A stretch of DNA of 64,000 bases from Brachyspira pilosicoli (GTDB lineage Bacteria > Spirochaetota > Brachyspiria > Brachyspirales > Brachyspiraceae): the NCBI RefSeq assembly GCF_008016535.1, contig NZ_SAXY01000040.1, forward strand, positions 1 through 64,000, given 5' to 3'. The notes beneath the pieces were generated by a model. It ran no database searches, was not told the DNA's origin, and worked only from the letters and a program-made list of their open reading frames with translations. Shown here piece after piece: positions 2,173 to 10,700 of the stretch. How positions within the stretch are numbered: position 1 is the first letter of the stretch; every line of letters begins with the position of its first letter. A program made the position numbers and the translations under genes.

Positions 2173-2799
2173 ATGAGTGAATTAAAAGTAAGCTGTATTA
2201 ACACAAATATGTATGGAATGAACTCTTATATAGTTTCTGTAGAAGATGAAGCTATTATAATAGATATTGCTAAATTGTCATTTGGATATGATGATTATAC
2301 AAAATTATTAGAAGGCAAAAAACTTGTTAATGTATTGTTTACGCATGGGCATTTTGACCATATGTCTGGTGCTGATGATATAAGAGAGATTTACAAAGAT
2401 ACAAAGCATGCTGTACACAAAGATGATTATGATTTCTTTCAAGATGCTAACTTAAATGCAAGCGGTTATTTTGGAAGAGGTATAACATGCCAAAGCCCAG
2501 AAATAAAGTTTAATGATGGGGATACTTTTAAGTTAAAAGACAAAGAGTTTAAGGTAATACATACTCCGGGGCACACAAGAGGAGGAGTTTGCTATTATAC
2601 AGAGGGACACTTATTTTGCGGAGATACTATATTTGCTTATGGTATAGGAAGAACAGATTTTGTTACTGGAAACTATGAGGAACTTGAAAACAGCATAACA
2701 AATATAATATACAAACTTCCAGATGATACATTGCTTTATCCAGGTCATGATGCTTACGGCTTTAAATTATCGCAAAGAAAGAAGATGGGCATAATGTGA
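2173..2799 (+). CDS. MBL-fold metallo-hydrolase (glyoxalase II-like)
   Basis: A 208-residue cytoplasmic protein of the metallo-beta-lactamase superfamily, the size of a stand-alone hydroxyacylglutathione-hydrolase-like enzyme. The zinc motif is THGHFDH (His58, His60, Asp62, His63), followed by His134 (TPGH), Asp151 (FCGD) and His192 (YPGHD), so the whole binuclear metal site is present. Substrate cannot be read from sequence; thioester or lactone hydrolysis is typical for this branch. A GGAG site sits eight bases before the ATG. It lies 18 bases after the secreted-protein gene. Confidence 0.88.
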   Translation: MSELKVSCINTNMYGMNSYIVSVEDEAIIIDIAKLSFGYDDYTKLLEGKKLVNVLFTHGHFDHMSGADDIREIYKDTKHAVHKDDYDFFQDANLNASGYFGRGITCQSPEIKFNDGDTFKLKDKEFKVIHTPGHTRGGVCYYTEGHLFCGDTIFAYGIGRTDFVTGNYEELENSITNIIYKLPDDTLLYPGHDAYGFKLSQRKKMGIM

Positions 2800-2908
2800 T
2801 TTAATAATAGCTGCAGTATATTTAAATCCTTATGGAATTAACAGAGTTTCAAATAATTATGCTTTAAAAAATAGCGATAATTATGCATTAGAAATAGAAA
2901 TATTTTAA
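2795..2908 (+). pseudogene. Possible gene remnant, C-terminal 37 codons only
   Basis: Directly after the MBL gene a frame stays open for 37 codons and ends at TAA (2906-2908). It has a protein-like composition (AAVYLNPYGI, then SNNYALKNSDNYALEIEIF), but no start codon and no ribosome-binding site; a stop lies immediately upstream. This looks like the tail of a lost gene, perhaps of an exported or surface protein, but I cannot name the family. It could be chance. Confidence 0.3.
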
Positions 2909-2975: not shown

Positions 2976-3116
2976 ATGAATATTATGTTTAGTTTAGAAA
3001 ATATAAACCGCACCGCACCGCACCGCACCGCACCGCACCGCACCGCACCGCACCGCACCGCACCGCACCGCACCGCACCGCACCGCACCGCACCGCACCG
3101 CACCGCACCGCACTAA
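2976..3116 (+). CDS. Short ORF built from an RTAPH pentapeptide repeat
   Basis: An ATG at 2976 opens a frame giving MNIMFSLENIN followed by exactly seven RTAPH repeats (3009-3113) and a TAA directly after the array: 46 residues. A five-base repeat unit read in triplets gives a five-residue repeat in every frame, so the array itself is always open. With the present 21 units the frame closes at once. With one unit more, or two fewer, it would run into an 80-codon open stretch that reaches into the next gene. No Shine-Dalgarno sequence is visible. Whether it is translated is unknown. Confidence 0.35.
   Translation: MNIMFSLENINRTAPHRTAPHRTAPHRTAPHRTAPHRTAPHRTAPH
3008..3113. repeat. Perfect pentanucleotide array, CCGCA x 21
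   Basis: Twenty-one uninterrupted copies of CCGCA plus one base, with no mismatch, in a region otherwise almost free of G and C. The lack of any substitution suggests recent expansion or ongoing copy-number change by slipped-strand mispairing. It lies inside the short ORF at 2976 and about 220 bases upstream of the Cys2CysHis repeat protein. Confidence 0.97.
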
Positions 3117-3334
3117 TTTAAACTTTTTATTTAAAATATTTTTTAAGGGCATTTATAATCTTTTTAACTGCCTGTCTTTGCTATTGCAGAAATTATTATA
3201 CATTAAAAAACTATCAGAATTATTTAATAACTTTATATATTTAAATTTCTTTTATAAAACAATTAAATCAATTGCAAAACTTTCAATATTTTTCAAAAAT
3301 TTAATAATAAAAATTTATTTTAAGGAGGCTTTTT

Positions 3335-3589
3335 ATGGCTCAAAATTTTTACTGTGAATATTGCGGTAGGAAATATAATTCTATATTTAGTTTAACATCT
3401 GGTTCTTGTTCTAGACATCCTGATGGAGCAAATAAGGGAAGGCATAAACTTTATGAAGGAAGTGAAAAAACTCAATATTTCTGCAAATACTGCGGTAGGA
3501 AATATAATTCCATATCTGATTTAACATCTAATTATTGTTCTAAACATCCAAATGGAGCAAATAAGGGAAGACATGCACCTGCTTTATAA
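3335..3589 (+). CDS. Small protein with two Cys2-Cys-His zinc-finger-like repeats
   Basis: An 84-residue protein made of two near-identical repeats of about 33 residues. Each has C-x2-C-GRKYNSI, then C-x2-H, then NGANKGRH or DGANKGRH. The putative metal ligands are Cys7, Cys10, Cys25, His28 and Cys50, Cys53, Cys68, His71, spaced like a compact zinc finger. No signal peptide or membrane segment. A strong AAGGAGG ribosome-binding site is at 3322-3328. I do not recognise the family; binding to nucleic acid or protein is a guess. An open frame from the CCGCA array runs into its start. Confidence 0.75.
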   Translation: MAQNFYCEYCGRKYNSIFSLTSGSCSRHPDGANKGRHKLYEGSEKTQYFCKYCGRKYNSISDLTSNYCSKHPNGANKGRHAPAL

Positions 3590-5865: not shown

Positions 5866-7068
5866 TTAATTTTCTCTTCTCTTCTTCTTTCTCAAAACTA
5901 TTATAGCTACACATAAAGCTACAACTACCGCCAAAGATATAGGAACAACCCAACCGCCGTAAGTTGAATCATCTGATAATATCTCATTCCAAAGCTCTTC
6001 CATAAGCAAGTTTGTCTCATCTGGCAATGTTATATAAACTTCGCAATTATCAAGAACCTCAGCAGGCGGATATATTAAAGGATTATTTTTTACTTCTTCG
6101 CTCATAATTTCTATAGCAGCATTATTAGGAGAGCCGTAATTAATATACTCTATATTAGCTAAAGCAACTTCTGCCTCGCATAAGAAATTTATATAAAGCT
6201 CAGCAGCCTCAACATTTTGAGCATTTGAAGGTATACATATAGCATCTACAAATAAATTAGCTCCATTCTCTGGTATAACAAATTTTAAATCAGGATTATT
6301 GTCTATCATAGAAAGAGAATCTCCAGCATAATAAACACCAAGTGCCGCCTCACCTGCCTCCATTTTGTCATATATTTCGTCCATTACATAAGCCTGAACC
6401 AAAGGTTTTTGCTCTTTTAATATTCTTGCAGTCTCTCTTAATTCCATTTCATTAGTAGTGTTTAATGAATAGTTTAAATAAGCCTGTGCCACTCCAAAAG
6501 CATCTCTTAGGTTATAATACATAAGTATTTGGCCTTTATATTTATCATTAAAAAGTATATCCCAGTCTACTATATCTTCTGTTACTTTTTTTGTATTATA
6601 TATTATTCCATTGATTCCCCAAGTATATGCTACAGAATATTCGCCTGTTGGGTCATAAAGTTGTTTATAAAATCTCTTGTCTATATTTTTAGCAGCTGGT
6701 ATATTATTATAATTTATTTTTTGTATGAGGTTTTCTTTTATCAATTTTGCTATCATATAATCTGAAGGTATTATTATATCATAAGCAATGCCGCCAACTT
6801 TTAATTTTACATAAAGCTCTTCATTTGAAGCAAAAGTTGAGTAATTTACTTTTATACCTGTAAGCTCTTCAAACTCTTTATTAATATCCATAGATTCATC
6901 AGAACCATCAGATATATACTCGCCCCAGTTGTATACATTTAAAGACATATTCTTATCTTTAAACTTCTGATAGTAGTTTAAATCGAGCTTGCTAGTATCA
7001 AGTCTCTGAGCATTCAATGAATAAAAACACATAGAAACTAATGCAAAACTAAAAAATAATTTTTTCAT
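5866..7068 (-). CDS. potD: Spermidine/putrescine-binding protein PotD, membrane-anchored variant
   Basis: A 400-residue extracytoplasmic solute-binding protein of the polyamine ABC importer. It has a signal peptide (MKKLFFSF, likely cut after LNA at about residue 20), the PotD-type start LNVYNWGEYISDG and the lobe motif YDIIIPSDYM. Unlike typical PotD proteins of about 350 residues, it ends with a hydrophobic segment (about 373-392) and a basic KKKRREN tail, which predicts a C-terminal membrane anchor instead of a lipid anchor. AAAGGAG precedes the ATG. It is the last gene of potA-potB-potC-potD, 24 bases after potC. Confidence 0.9.
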   Translation of the reverse strand: MKKLFFSFALVSMCFYSLNAQRLDTSKLDLNYYQKFKDKNMSLNVYNWGEYISDGSDESMDINKEFEELTGIKVNYSTFASNEELYVKLKVGGIAYDIIIPSDYMIAKLIKENLIQKINYNNIPAAKNIDKRFYKQLYDPTGEYSVAYTWGINGIIYNTKKVTEDIVDWDILFNDKYKGQILMYYNLRDAFGVAQAYLNYSLNTTNEMELRETARILKEQKPLVQAYVMDEIYDKMEAGEAALGVYYAGDSLSMIDNNPDLKFVIPENGANLFVDAICIPSNAQNVEAAELYINFLCEAEVALANIEYINYGSPNNAAIEIMSEEVKNNPLIYPPAEVLDNCEVYITLPDETNLLMEELWNEILSDDSTYGGWVVPISLAVVVALCVAIIVLRKKKRREN

Positions 7069-7092: not shown

Positions 7093-7905
7093 TTAATTAT
7101 TTTTATTGAATTTTCTTTTTAATTGTGTTAAATATTTTTCTTTTTTTATCTCTTTAATATTGATAATAACTAAAGTGATAAGAACTATAGTAAATATTAC
7201 AGTAGATATAGCATTAATTTCTGGGCTTACTCTTTTTCTAGTCATAGAATAAATTGTTATAGGAAGAGTTTGAGAAGTGATGCCAGAAGTAAAATAACTT
7301 ACAACAAAATCATCTAAAGAATAAGTAAGAGCCATTAAAAAACCAGCTATAATACCAGGAAATATATCAGGAATTACAACCTTCCAAAAAGCCAAAGTAG
7401 GAGTGCATCCCAAATCTAATGCTGCTTCATACAAACTATTATCCTGCTGTCTTAATTTTGGAAGAACATTCAATATTACATAAGGTATATTAAAAGTAAT
7501 ATGAGCAAGTATTAAAGTTGTAAAACCGAATTTCAATTTCATTATTACAAACAAAAGCATTAATGAAACACCTGTCACTATTTCAGGATTAATTATAGAT
7601 ATGTAGGTAACACCCATAATAGCACTTTTCATTTTTTTGTTGAAAGAACTTATTCCAATAGCAGCCATAGTTCCTATAATTGTAGCAAGTACAGATGAAA
7701 CAGCAGCTACTATGATTGTGTTAAAAAAAGAAGTTAATATCAAATCATTTGAAAAAAGTCTTTCATACCATTCAAAAGTAAACCCCGTAAAAACTCCGCG
7801 TCCTCTTGCTTTATTGAAAGAGAAAAATATTAGTATAGCTATAGGAGCATATAAAAATAAAAATATAAAAGCAATATATGTTCTAGAGAGTATTTTTTTT
7901 ATCAT
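7093..7905 (-). CDS. potC: Polyamine ABC transporter permease PotC
   Basis: A 270-residue inner-membrane permease with about six transmembrane segments. The cytoplasmic EAA loop that docks on the ATPase is EAALDLGCTPTLAFWKVVIP, about 60-100 residues from the C-terminus as usual. With PotB it forms the channel for spermidine/putrescine uptake. The start overlaps the potB stop by four bases (ATGA), indicating translational coupling. Confidence 0.92.
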   Translation of the reverse strand: MIKKILSRTYIAFIFLFLYAPIAILIFFSFNKARGRGVFTGFTFEWYERLFSNDLILTSFFNTIIVAAVSSVLATIIGTMAAIGISSFNKKMKSAIMGVTYISIINPEIVTGVSLMLLFVIMKLKFGFTTLILAHITFNIPYVILNVLPKLRQQDNSLYEAALDLGCTPTLAFWKVVIPDIFPGIIAGFLMALTYSLDDFVVSYFTSGITSQTLPITIYSMTRKRVSPEINAISTVIFTIVLITLVIINIKEIKKEKYLTQLKRKFNKNN

Positions 7906-8711
7906 AATAGCATACCCTCTACATCATCATCAATCTGCTGCATAAGAAGTATAGCACATAATGAAATTACTATTAAAACCAAACTAATAGCAGACCCCAA
8001 ATTAGGATTATAAGACATTCCTAAAAATTGCATCTCTATCAAATCACCTATAAGTATGTTGGAGCCTCCACCAAGCATACGGGAAATTACAAATGTACTA
8101 ACAGCTGCCACAAACACCATAGTAACACCAGAAGCCATACCCGGCAAACTTAAAGGAAAAACAACTTTTGTAAATACATTAAAAGAATTAGCACCCAAAT
8201 CTTGAGAAGCCTCTATTAAACTCTTATGTATCTTTGTCATTACAGAATATAGAGGAAGTATCATAAAAGGCAAATAGTTATATATCATTCCTATAAGCAC
8301 AGCCCATTGAGTGTTTATAAGTTTTACAGGTGAAAGCCCGAAAAAAATTAAAGTCTTATTAATTAAACCATTTTGCTCTAATATAGTCATCCAAGCATAT
8401 GTTCTTAATAAAAAGTTCATCCACATAGGAAGCATTACAAGCATTATAAGTGCATGCTGAACTGTTTTATTTTGTCTTGATATATAATAAGATAATGGAT
8501 AAGCAAGTATCAAACATACCAAAGTAGACACAAAAGCAAGCATCACAGAACGCATTATAACAGGGGCAAATGTAGAAACATCTGCAAAATTTTTTATAGT
8601 AAAATCACCCCTCTGATTAGTAAAAGCAAAATATATAACCAAAATTAAAGGCACCAATATAAAAACTAAAGTCCAAATAAGATAAGGTATAGCAGGTATT
8701 TTTGTTTTCAT
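7902..8711 (-). CDS. potB: Polyamine ABC transporter permease PotB
   Basis: A 269-residue permease with about six membrane segments and the EAA loop [20 protein letters not shown]. It pairs with PotC. Its ATG overlaps the potA stop by four bases and its own stop overlaps the potC start by four, so the three genes are translationally coupled. Length and topology are normal for the family. Confidence 0.92.
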
Positions 8712-9766
8712 AAAAGCACCTCCTCTTCCTCTCTTTTCATTATATGAATATTTTCTTTAGCTACATCAATGCCAATCTCAGTACCAGCTTCCCATTTCTC
8801 TGTAGAATGTATAATCCATTTATAACCATGAGCATCAAGTATCATCTCATAATGAACACCCTTAAATATAGCAGATTCCACAAGTCCAGATATATTAGCA
8901 TTATCAGCAGGCACTACTATTATATCTTCCGGACGAATAACAACATCAACTTTCTCTAACTTTTCAAAACCCTTATCAACACAATTAAATACATAACCCG
9001 CAAACTCAACTAAATAATCTTCATGCATAATACCATCTATAATATTGCTCTCTCCAATAAAATCTGCTATGAATGCATTCTTTGGTTCATTGTATATATC
9101 TTGAGGAGTGCCAATCTGAAGTATCTCTCCGTCTTTCATAACAGCAACCGTATCACTCATAGTTAAAGCTTCTTCTTGGTCATGAGTAACATATACAAAA
9201 GTAATCTCTAATGACTGCTGAATTTTTTTAAGCTCTATTTGCATCTCTTTTCTAAGTTTTAAATCTAATGCTCCTAAAGGCTCATCAAGAAGTAAAACCC
9301 TCGGCTTATTTATTAATGCCCTTGCAATAGCTACCCTCTGCTGCTGACCGCCTGATAAATTATTGATATTTCTATTTCCGTAATTTTCTAAGTTCACCAT
9401 CTTCAGCATTTGATGAACTCTATCTTTAATATCTGCTTTAGGAACCTTTTTGAGATTAAGACCAAAAGCAATATTTTCAAACACATTAAGATGCGGAAAC
9501 AAAGCATATCTTTGAAAAACAGTATTTACTTCCCTTTTGTAGGGCTGAGTATTATTTATCACCTTACCGTCAAATAATACCTCTCCATAATCTGGCTTAA
9601 CAAAACCTGCTATAGTTCTAAGTATAGTTGTTTTACCGCAGCCTGAAGGTCCTAAAAGAGTGAGAAACTCTTTGTCTTTGATGTCTAAATTAAGATTTTC
9701 AAGTATGGTATTTTCACCATAAGATACATTGATATTTTTTAAAGATACGATAATATTATCGCCCAT
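8708..9766 (-). CDS. potA: Polyamine ABC transporter ATP-binding protein PotA
   Basis: A 352-residue ABC ATPase with Walker [11 protein letters not shown]-loop region, signature LSGGQQQR, Walker B VLLLDEP and the switch His ([10 protein letters not shown]), followed by a TOBE-type C-terminal domain (VVIRPEDI). It energises polyamine import through PotB and PotC. I chose the ATG at 9766 (MGDNIIVSL): it has a textbook AGGGGG site seven bases upstream, and the alternative start at 9823 would translate through the structured leader. It is the first gene of the operon. Confidence 0.93.
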
Positions 9767-9880
9767 CACACGACCCCCTATGCGTATATTTACAATAGCC
9801 TCCGTAAAATTACGTATATACATGTTAACGTATAAAACGCAGTTTACTCGTCGCTTACCCGCATAGGGTTTTTTTCGTTC
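9767..9880 (-). promoter_or_regulatory. Structured potA leader, candidate riboswitch hiding the ribosome-binding site
   Basis: The 5' leader begins with CCCTATGCG (minus strand, 9868-9860) and ends with a perfectly complementary CGCATAGGG (9784-9776). The nine-base-pair helix encloses about 75 bases. Its 3' strand overlaps the AGGGGG ribosome-binding site of potA, so closing the helix would block translation. Inside are further inverted repeats that compete (TACGT with ACGTA; CGTAA with TTACG). This local sequence is richer in G and C than the surroundings. A small-molecule-sensing leader for a polyamine importer is a reasonable inference, but I do not recognise an Rfam family. Confidence 0.55.
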
Positions 9881-9886
9881 TAGCTA

Positions 9887-9919
9887 ATTATAGATTAATA
9901 ATAAGCCTTTCTTAGTCAA
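9887..9919 (-). promoter_or_regulatory. Promoter of the potABCD operon
   Basis: A perfect TATAAT lies at 9892-9887, which puts the transcript start near 9880, just before the structured leader. TTGACT at 9919-9914 is a good -35 hexamer, but the spacer is 21 bases, longer than the usual 16-18, so the -10 element may dominate or an activator may help. Confidence 0.5.
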
Positions 9920-10122
9920 CAGATACACCTGCAAAGAATATCCATTACTCGAGCTATTGCATTAATTTTTTAATGAAACTCAATATAATACAAATAAAAA
10001 TAATGTCAATACTATAAATAAAATTTTATTTAAGTTTTTTAATTCTAATGAAATATTTTTACTAAATGTTATTAACATATCATAAAAAATAATTTTAAAT
10101 ATGAAATCTTAATATACAAAAG
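9920..10122. other. Gene-free divergent region between potA and the LEA14-like gene
   Basis: A/T-rich sequence with no reading frame, repeat or strong structure that I can support. It separates the outward-facing potA and LEA14-like promoters. Confidence 0.5.
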
Positions 10123-10151
10123 TTGCAATACTATTATAAATTATATATAAT
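10123..10151 (+). promoter_or_regulatory. Sigma-70-type promoter for the LEA14-like lipoprotein gene
   Basis: TTGCAA (10123-10128), a 17-base spacer and a perfect TATAAT (10146-10151), about 58 bases before the ATG at 10209. Confidence 0.6.
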
Positions 10152-10208
10152 CCAATATAAATAGATTTTTAGTTCTATAACAAAATTAAAATCAAGGAAG
10201 CTCATTCT

Positions 10209-10700
10209 ATGAAAAATATCAAAAAATTATCTATTGTCTTAATATCTTTATTATTTATATTATCTTCATGCGAAACATTACAAAATACAGCAAGAGAAAT
10301 TACAAGAGAATATATAGAAGAAAATAAACCAGATATAAAAGTAAAAAAAGCTTCTATTGCAAGTATAACTTTTAAAGATATTACTTTAGATGTGCTTCTA
10401 AATATAAAAAATAATTTTCCTTTTGAATTGCCATTAGAAAGAATAGATATAGAATTAATTAATACAGATAATAAAGTTTTTACAAGTGCAAACACTATTC
10501 AAACTCTAAAAATACCTTCTAAACAATCAAAAGATGTTAATATGGAGTTTAATGCTAAATATATTGATGTATTTACTACAGCCTTTGGAAGTATAAAAAA
10601 TAAAAACTTCAAATGCTCTGCTAAAATTACTTTAACTTTTACAATACAAAATATGAAATTCCAAATACCTTATACTAAAGAATTAACTTTTATAGAATAA
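10209..10700 (+). CDS. LEA14/WHy-like lipoprotein
   Basis: A 163-residue lipoprotein: signal sequence followed by the lipobox LSSC with the modified Cys at residue 21. The mature part matches the pattern of LEA14-type (LEA_2/WHy) domains: a derivative of FKDITLDVLLNIKNNFPFELP followed by a beta-rich fold and a closing polar strand. Such proteins occur in bacterial envelopes; their role is not established. The AAGGAAG ribosome-binding site is well placed. It converges on the MATE gene with 24 bases between the stops. Confidence 0.65.
   Translation: MKNIKKLSIVLISLLFILSSCETLQNTAREITREYIEENKPDIKVKKASIASITFKDITLDVLLNIKNNFPFELPLERIDIELINTDNKVFTSANTIQTLKIPSKQSKDVNMEFNAKYIDVFTTAFGSIKNKNFKCSAKITLTFTIQNMKFQIPYTKELTFIE

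Follow-up and report, generated by a model that had tools for sequence, protein, structure and literature searches.

A conserved leader RNA upstream of potABCD in Brachyspira, a candidate translational switch for polyamine uptake

The potABCD operon and its promoter

In the window, which is the whole 64,000-nt stretch of Brachyspira pilosicoli DNA analyzed here, we identified a four-gene operon on the minus strand together with the following signals for its expression.

9982..10009, minus strand: potA promoter, TTGACA-16 nt-TATATT (11/12 matches in a promoter scan; near-invariant in 24 aligned leaders)
9774..9779, minus strand: potA Shine-Dalgarno (SD) sequence AGGGGG, 7 nt before the ATG at 9766
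8708..9766, minus strand: potA, polyamine ABC transporter ATPase (TIGR01187, 368 bits, above cut-off)
7902..8711, minus strand: potB, its start overlapping the potA stop by 4 nt (ATGA)
7093..7905, minus strand: potC, its start overlapping the potB stop by 4 nt
5866..7068, minus strand: potD, spermidine/putrescine-binding protein (E. coli PotD 1pot, E 1e-51; NCBIfam PotD, E 1e-56, below cut-off)

PotD is close to solved PotD/PotF structures, and by its gene assignments the operon is a clear polyamine importer. Owing to the 4-nt start/stop overlaps, a joint drop of potA, potB and potC is expected, in that blocked initiation at potA should lower all three together through coupling. AdoMet decarboxylase (PF02675) was not found in the window's own genome (G000), where spermidine synthase is represented by a borderline spermine-synthase-fold match only (24.6 bits), and uptake is therefore probably the main source of spermidine. 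Its gene content suggests possible spermidine auxotrophy in this Brachyspira. The divergent neighbor of the operon (10209-10700, plus strand) encodes a predicted lipoprotein-like protein of 163 aa with a LEA14-like look by eye.

The leader spans the promoter (10009-9982) to the potA ATG at 9766. Transcription is predicted to start at about position 9975, and since the near-invariant promoter sits at 10009-9982, the leader is about 200 nt long and not about 110 nt. The original prediction had taken a TATAAT (9892-9887) as the promoter and let the RNA begin just before a 9-bp helix. This TATAAT, however, lies in the variable loop of a hairpin (P3, see below), has no -35 element at a proper distance and is not conserved, being absent from L011, L017, L024, G067 and G075 in the leader alignment, and the structured element reaches upstream to about 9960. 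The SD is of the GGAG type in L023, L024 and G075. The potA frame is open upstream to an ATG at 9823, here and in many genomes (391 codons), and a coding extension to this codon was considered and rejected, as in other species this frame is disrupted by indels immediately preceding the ATG, with the RNA retained. The conserved start codon is the one at 9766, the position of which is kept across species, whereas the upstream frame is not. If potA is annotated automatically as 8708-9823 (minus strand), its start may fall within the RNA element.

Conservation and distribution of the leader

When the 196-nt leader of the window was compared with those of ten other species, identity over non-gap positions was 91-100% for nine of them and 86% for the tenth. 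The corresponding levels were 32-82% for fourfold sites of potA and 62-89% for the DNA upstream of the promoter. Gaps in the leader fall mostly in the variable loops of two hairpins, P3 and P5. By this comparison, the non-coding leader sequence is under strong purifying selection, and since none of its reading frames persists throughout the leader set, the leader acts as an RNA.

A covariance model (R1), built without potA sequence past the start codon, was searched over 393 spirochaete genomes. Exactly one copy was found in 25 of the 26 Brachyspira genomes and one in each of two sister-genus genomes (E 2.5e-13 and 9e-8), in both of which it directly precedes the potA gene (77-79% identity) of a full potABCD operon. 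Indeed, the element lies directly before potA at every site read. With a second covariance model that includes the sister-genus copies, these were matched at E 5e-23 and 8e-17, a gain that is expected because they are then part of the model, and no further copies appeared among the ~390 spirochaete genomes. The phylogenetic range of the element is thus narrow, comprising one family, and this genome set yielded no homologous leader beyond Brachyspiraceae. The four members of the order without the RNA (G006, G148, G025 and G026) are also without a close potA. Weak matches elsewhere in the phylum were rejected as chance-level, those in G091 and G143 (E 0.2-0.6) aligning without the conserved core and that in G103 having an E of 0.4. 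Searches of viral contigs for the core pattern and of plasmids for the leader gave none.

Architecture of the leader

The long-range helix P1 was found de novo by RNAalifold from 19 distinct leaders, and together with P2 to P5 it forms a domain of about 160 nt, closed by P1. From 5' to 3', the leader contains the following elements.

9951..9960, minus strand: P1 5' strand, GCAAUAGCUC (RNAalifold de novo; covaries in L023, L024 and the sister genus)
9914..9949, minus strand: P2 hairpin, 15 pairs with a conserved U.U mismatch and a bulged G (mostly invariant, one-sided changes)
9905..9917, minus strand: conserved core GACUAAGAAnGGC at the P2/P3 junction (invariant but for one position in 27 leaders of two genera)
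9882..9907, minus strand: P3 hairpin, GGCU...AGCU, with a loop of variable length (~5 to 30 nt) that contains the TATAAT
9866..9880, minus strand: single-stranded A-rich core GAWCGAAAAA(A)CCC (conserved in two genera)
9857..9869, minus strand: P4 local hairpin, ACCC-UAUGC-GGGU, its loop complementary to the SD region (CCC/GGG kept in 27/27 leaders)
9847..9854, minus strand: conserved core GCGACGAG (unchanged in the two sister-genus leaders and the majority of Brachyspira, with GCGA present in every leader)
9804..9847, minus strand: P5 stem
9792..9802, minus strand: P1 3' strand, GAG.G.CUAUUGY, pairing with 9960-9951

P1 is rebuilt with other bases in different lineages, reading CAAUAGC/GCUAUUG in Brachyspira and, in the sister-genus leaders, AUCGGCA/UGCUGAU (G067) and UCGGU/ACCGA (G075). 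The two strands of G067 pair with each other at -11.0 kcal/mol, compared with -3.2 to -5.3 kcal/mol when its 5' strand is combined with Brachyspira 3' strands. Likewise, L023 reaches -12.1 with its own strands and about -7 kcal/mol when its 3' strand is combined with most Brachyspira 5' strands. The P1 strands of Brachyspira and G067 pair far better within their lineage than crossed. In G075, P1 is short and the weakest, with 108 of 5000 shuffles as good, and a slightly better partner for its 5' strand is the 3' strand of G067. The P3 stem is preserved by changed pairs, as for instance in L024, L023 and G075, while P5 is swapped for a shorter hairpin in L011, L013, L020 and L047 and reads AAUAUAA/UUAUAUU in G067. 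In total, double changes were observed in 15 of the 55 pairs over 26 distinct leaders, where shuffles gave 2.0 and slid controls gave 1-5. The alignment behind this count (A2) was fitted to the structure and is so biased toward the model; an unfitted MAFFT alignment (A1) was likewise above its controls.

Pairing of the Shine-Dalgarno sequence

The helix on which the original prediction centered joins the inside of the P1 domain to the SD region.

9860..9868, minus strand: 5' arm of the SD-sequestering helix, CCCUAUGCG
9776..9784, minus strand: 3' arm of the SD-sequestering helix, CGCAUAGGG (kept in L023 and G067 despite diverged flanks; one mismatch in G075)

As predicted, CCCTATGCG (9868-9860) is perfectly complementary to CGCATAGGG (9784-9776) over 9 bp with 75 nt enclosed, and the 3' arm includes AGGG of the AGGGGG site. 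The stretch was also correctly described as unusually rich in G+C (39.8% compared with 27% for the window), a level that about 5% of 93-nt stretches match. Perfect 9-bp inverted repeats with at least five G/C number four in the window against 0.6 expected. Folded alone, the 121-nt stretch gains only modestly on dinucleotide shuffles (z -2.0; 7 of 200 shuffles), and the 9-bp helix is thus weak evidence by itself. Its arms, on the other hand, are identical in 25/25 Brachyspira leaders and nearly identical in the two from the sister genus.

The helix had been regarded as the closing stem of the element, a role that belongs to P1. Its 5' arm is made up of the loop and 5' strand of P4 and lies inside the P1 domain, and its 3' arm lies outside, 7 nt downstream of P1 (4-6 nt in the sister genus), so that the helix becomes a pseudoknot, or SD clamp, when formed together with P1. 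The original prediction had suggested looking in aligned relatives for covariation in this helix and for a conserved core. The core is there and covariation is seen in P1, P3 and P5, but the 9-bp helix is invariant in Brachyspira. The outcome named beforehand as speaking against a switch, namely relatives without a common core and with arms diverging uncompensated, was looked for, and the leaders instead have the core in common and display covariation. UAUGCG/CGCAUA is invariant in 27/27 leaders of both genera. Of the outer pairs, CCC/GGG, Brachyspira retains all, G067 forms them via a fourth G, having an inserted U and one additional G.U, and in G075 one is broken by a C.U mismatch. From these sequences we regard the kissing part UAUGCG/CGCAUA as firm and the outer three pairs as less so, since no double compensatory change in the 9-bp helix was found among the 26 distinct leaders and G075 has the C.U mismatch.

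P4 and the SD helix share the same CCC and are therefore mutually exclusive, as is characteristic of a riboswitch expression platform. With nested energies, in which the pseudoknot is unscored, the window leader reaches -38.2 kcal/mol with P1 and P4 and -36.5 kcal/mol with the SD helix and no P1; near-equal fold energies are what a switch would be expected to show. In thermodynamic models of nested folds, the SD is paired in most leaders unless P1 forms. No terminator was called in 9600-10220, and as the SD lies within the pairing, control of translation is the likelier mode.

Comparison with known RNA classes

Rfam 15, searched over the whole window at the gathering threshold, gave a single match, a purine riboswitch aptamer away from the leader (RF00167, 983-1079, minus strand, 55 bits), and searches with the leaders at E<=10 gave chance-level matches only. 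The view that the leader belongs to no Rfam class therefore holds in the covariance-model search. SAM families had no Rfam match at E<=10 in the window or in the sister-genus leaders, and SAM-I hallmark strings were absent. Signature boxes and model matches of T-box, cobalamin and TPP elements were likewise absent, and no tRNA or tmRNA gene was called in the window. SAM-II, preQ1-II and translational cobalamin riboswitches are translational riboswitches that sequester the SD through a pseudoknot. The potABCD leader resembles these in that a loop of the P1 domain pairs with or beside an SD located just 3' of the domain, but differs from them in size and stem order and has no sequence or Rfam match to them.

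Polyamine riboswitches have long been sought, and only one class is firmly supported, in which a variant of SAM-I is associated with synthesis genes (Salvail et al. 2023, PMC10853860). This spermidine class has the SAM-I four-stem fold, is found with polyamine-synthesis genes and acts by transcription termination (PMC10853860). The potABCD leader shares with it the position before polyamine genes and the expected feedback OFF logic, whereas the fold is different, the operon is for import and the platform would be translational. As there is neither a SAM-I match nor a terminator, the leader is not a member of this class. Among candidate structured RNAs, the potC motif (RF01751), known from marine sequences only (PMC2864571), is also near a polyamine-transporter gene, but has no Rfam match to the leader. 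The potE motif occurs only in Veillonella and environmental sequences, with a putrescine-ornithine antiporter gene, and the odc1 motif is an alphaproteobacterial single hairpin with a pseudoknot, a sequestered RBS and a conserved 11-aa uORF (PMC8632094). Both are, like the leader, candidate cis-elements of polyamine genes; potE as described differs in gene and host range, and odc1 in its conserved uORF, which the leader lacks. The leader of speFL in E. coli and relatives, a polyamine-responsive 5' leader that acts by ribosome stalling on a uORF as cited in PMC10319736, is comparable as a 5' leader of polyamine genes and differs in the same respect. In Borrelia burgdorferi, another spirochaete with a potABCD operon, spermidine (10 mM) down-regulates potABCD after initiation, with 5' fragments, and this event is located inside the potB ORF (PMC10319736). 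One characterized spirochaete riboswitch was named as of 2023, the TPP riboswitch of Treponema denticola (PMC10319736).

Proposed switch and alternative explanations

The element is almost certainly a structured cis-regulatory RNA, and control of translation through the SD is probable. A translation-controlling switch was what the original prediction had proposed, and the conserved structured leader of a polyamine-import operon, with the SD placed for sequestration, bears this out, although the start and extent given for the RNA were wrong. We also consider a small-molecule riboswitch fairly likely, in that the leader is, as is general for riboswitches, a conserved structured 5' UTR domain with covariation and is tied to one pathway.

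The mechanism we propose builds on what can be read from the sequence, namely the leader and its conservation, the covariation of P1, the complementarity between loop and SD, and the operon. The P1-closed domain of about 160 nt, with P1 to P5 and the single-stranded core segments, would sense the signal. In the open state, P4 would be formed and the SD free, so that potA is translated and potB and potC follow by coupling. In the closed state, the P4 loop and arm CCCUAUGCG would pair with CGCAUAGGG as a pseudoknot, AGGG would be hidden and uptake would stop. High intracellular polyamine (spermidine or putrescine) would favor the closed state. In this scheme we infer the two-state switching, the direction of control and the ligand. 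Under the riboswitch reading, ligand protection would be expected in GACUAAGAA, GCGACGAG and the P4 loop. As a whole, a riboswitch-like translational OFF switch that sequesters the SD in polyamine feedback is the explanation we favor, if by a little more than an even chance. For the ligand itself, spermidine or putrescine is suggested by gene context and is put forward tentatively, as somewhat less than an even chance; this context gives a single clue, because only one type of operon carries the leader.

The same RNA switch might instead respond to something other than a polyamine, for instance a different metabolite, Mg2+ or another ion, or a signaling nucleotide. Many riboswitches of transporter genes sense ions or signals, and gene context alone indicates polyamines here. 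However, the potABCD importer is the only associated operon in all leaders found, and with no AdoMet decarboxylase and a borderline spermidine synthase in the own genome, import should need control. We therefore regard a non-polyamine signal as unlikely, though the most serious of the alternatives. More improbable is a leader whose P1 domain is held by a protein, either a regulator or an RNA-binding protein, that thereby controls access to the SD. The conserved single-stranded segments could be protein contacts and the narrow distribution would suit a clade-specific protein, but size, multi-stem design, conserved joints and pseudoknotted platform are more like those of metabolite aptamers, and no candidate protein was identified. 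An RNA thermometer, or a constitutive structural leader that sets stability or translation without a specific ligand, would fit the pairing of the SD in surroundings that are rich in A+U and of marginal stability, and the two folds of near-equal energy; as neither a strictly conserved single-stranded core over 160 nt nor a distant covarying P1 is needed for this, we consider it very improbable. Attenuation through a uORF leader peptide, with ribosome stalling as in speFL, has hardly any chance and was rejected: a 9-codon frame, MDILCRCIC-stop, begins in P2 in most Brachyspira, but it is without a convincing SD, reads MDILK-stop in L011 and L047, lacks an ATG in G067 and encodes a different peptide in G075, and as MRVSDE-stop and LQIYA-stop are not kept either, no frame is kept across the 27 leaders. 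Finally, a chance inverted repeat or a plus-strand intrinsic terminator (CGCATAGGG followed by TTTTTTT), to which the T run after the plus-strand arm might point, is practically refuted by the 75-nt loop, the absence of a called terminator and the conservation and covariation of the minus-strand RNA.

If the polyamine-responsive switch is as proposed, the leader might represent a second class of natural polyamine riboswitches that has no relation to SAM-I and is restricted to Brachyspiraceae, the first on an import operon and the first to act translationally via an SD pseudoknot. We suggest this cautiously, as a claim with the balance against it. No published account of the element was found in the open literature (subscription papers and supplements lay outside the search). 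The potABCD leader is a testable candidate for a second, independent polyamine riboswitch solution and, if true, would be a rare spirochaete riboswitch, with the sister-genus leaders supplying the covariation needed to define the class.

Duplicated promoter segments

The potA promoter and the first ~45 nt of the leader are duplicated elsewhere in three Brachyspira genomes, in which the rest of the switch is absent from the duplicate (L044, ~3180-3400, minus strand; L045, ~2980-3200, minus strand; L046, ~2680-2900, plus strand). In two of the three genomes the duplicate lies 11-12 kb from potA. The duplicates in L044 and L046 precede a Cys-rich peptide of ~41 aa, which in L046 matches the streptolysin S family TOMM precursor (TIGR03602, 40.3 bits, cut-off 35) and is followed by ABC-transporter genes.
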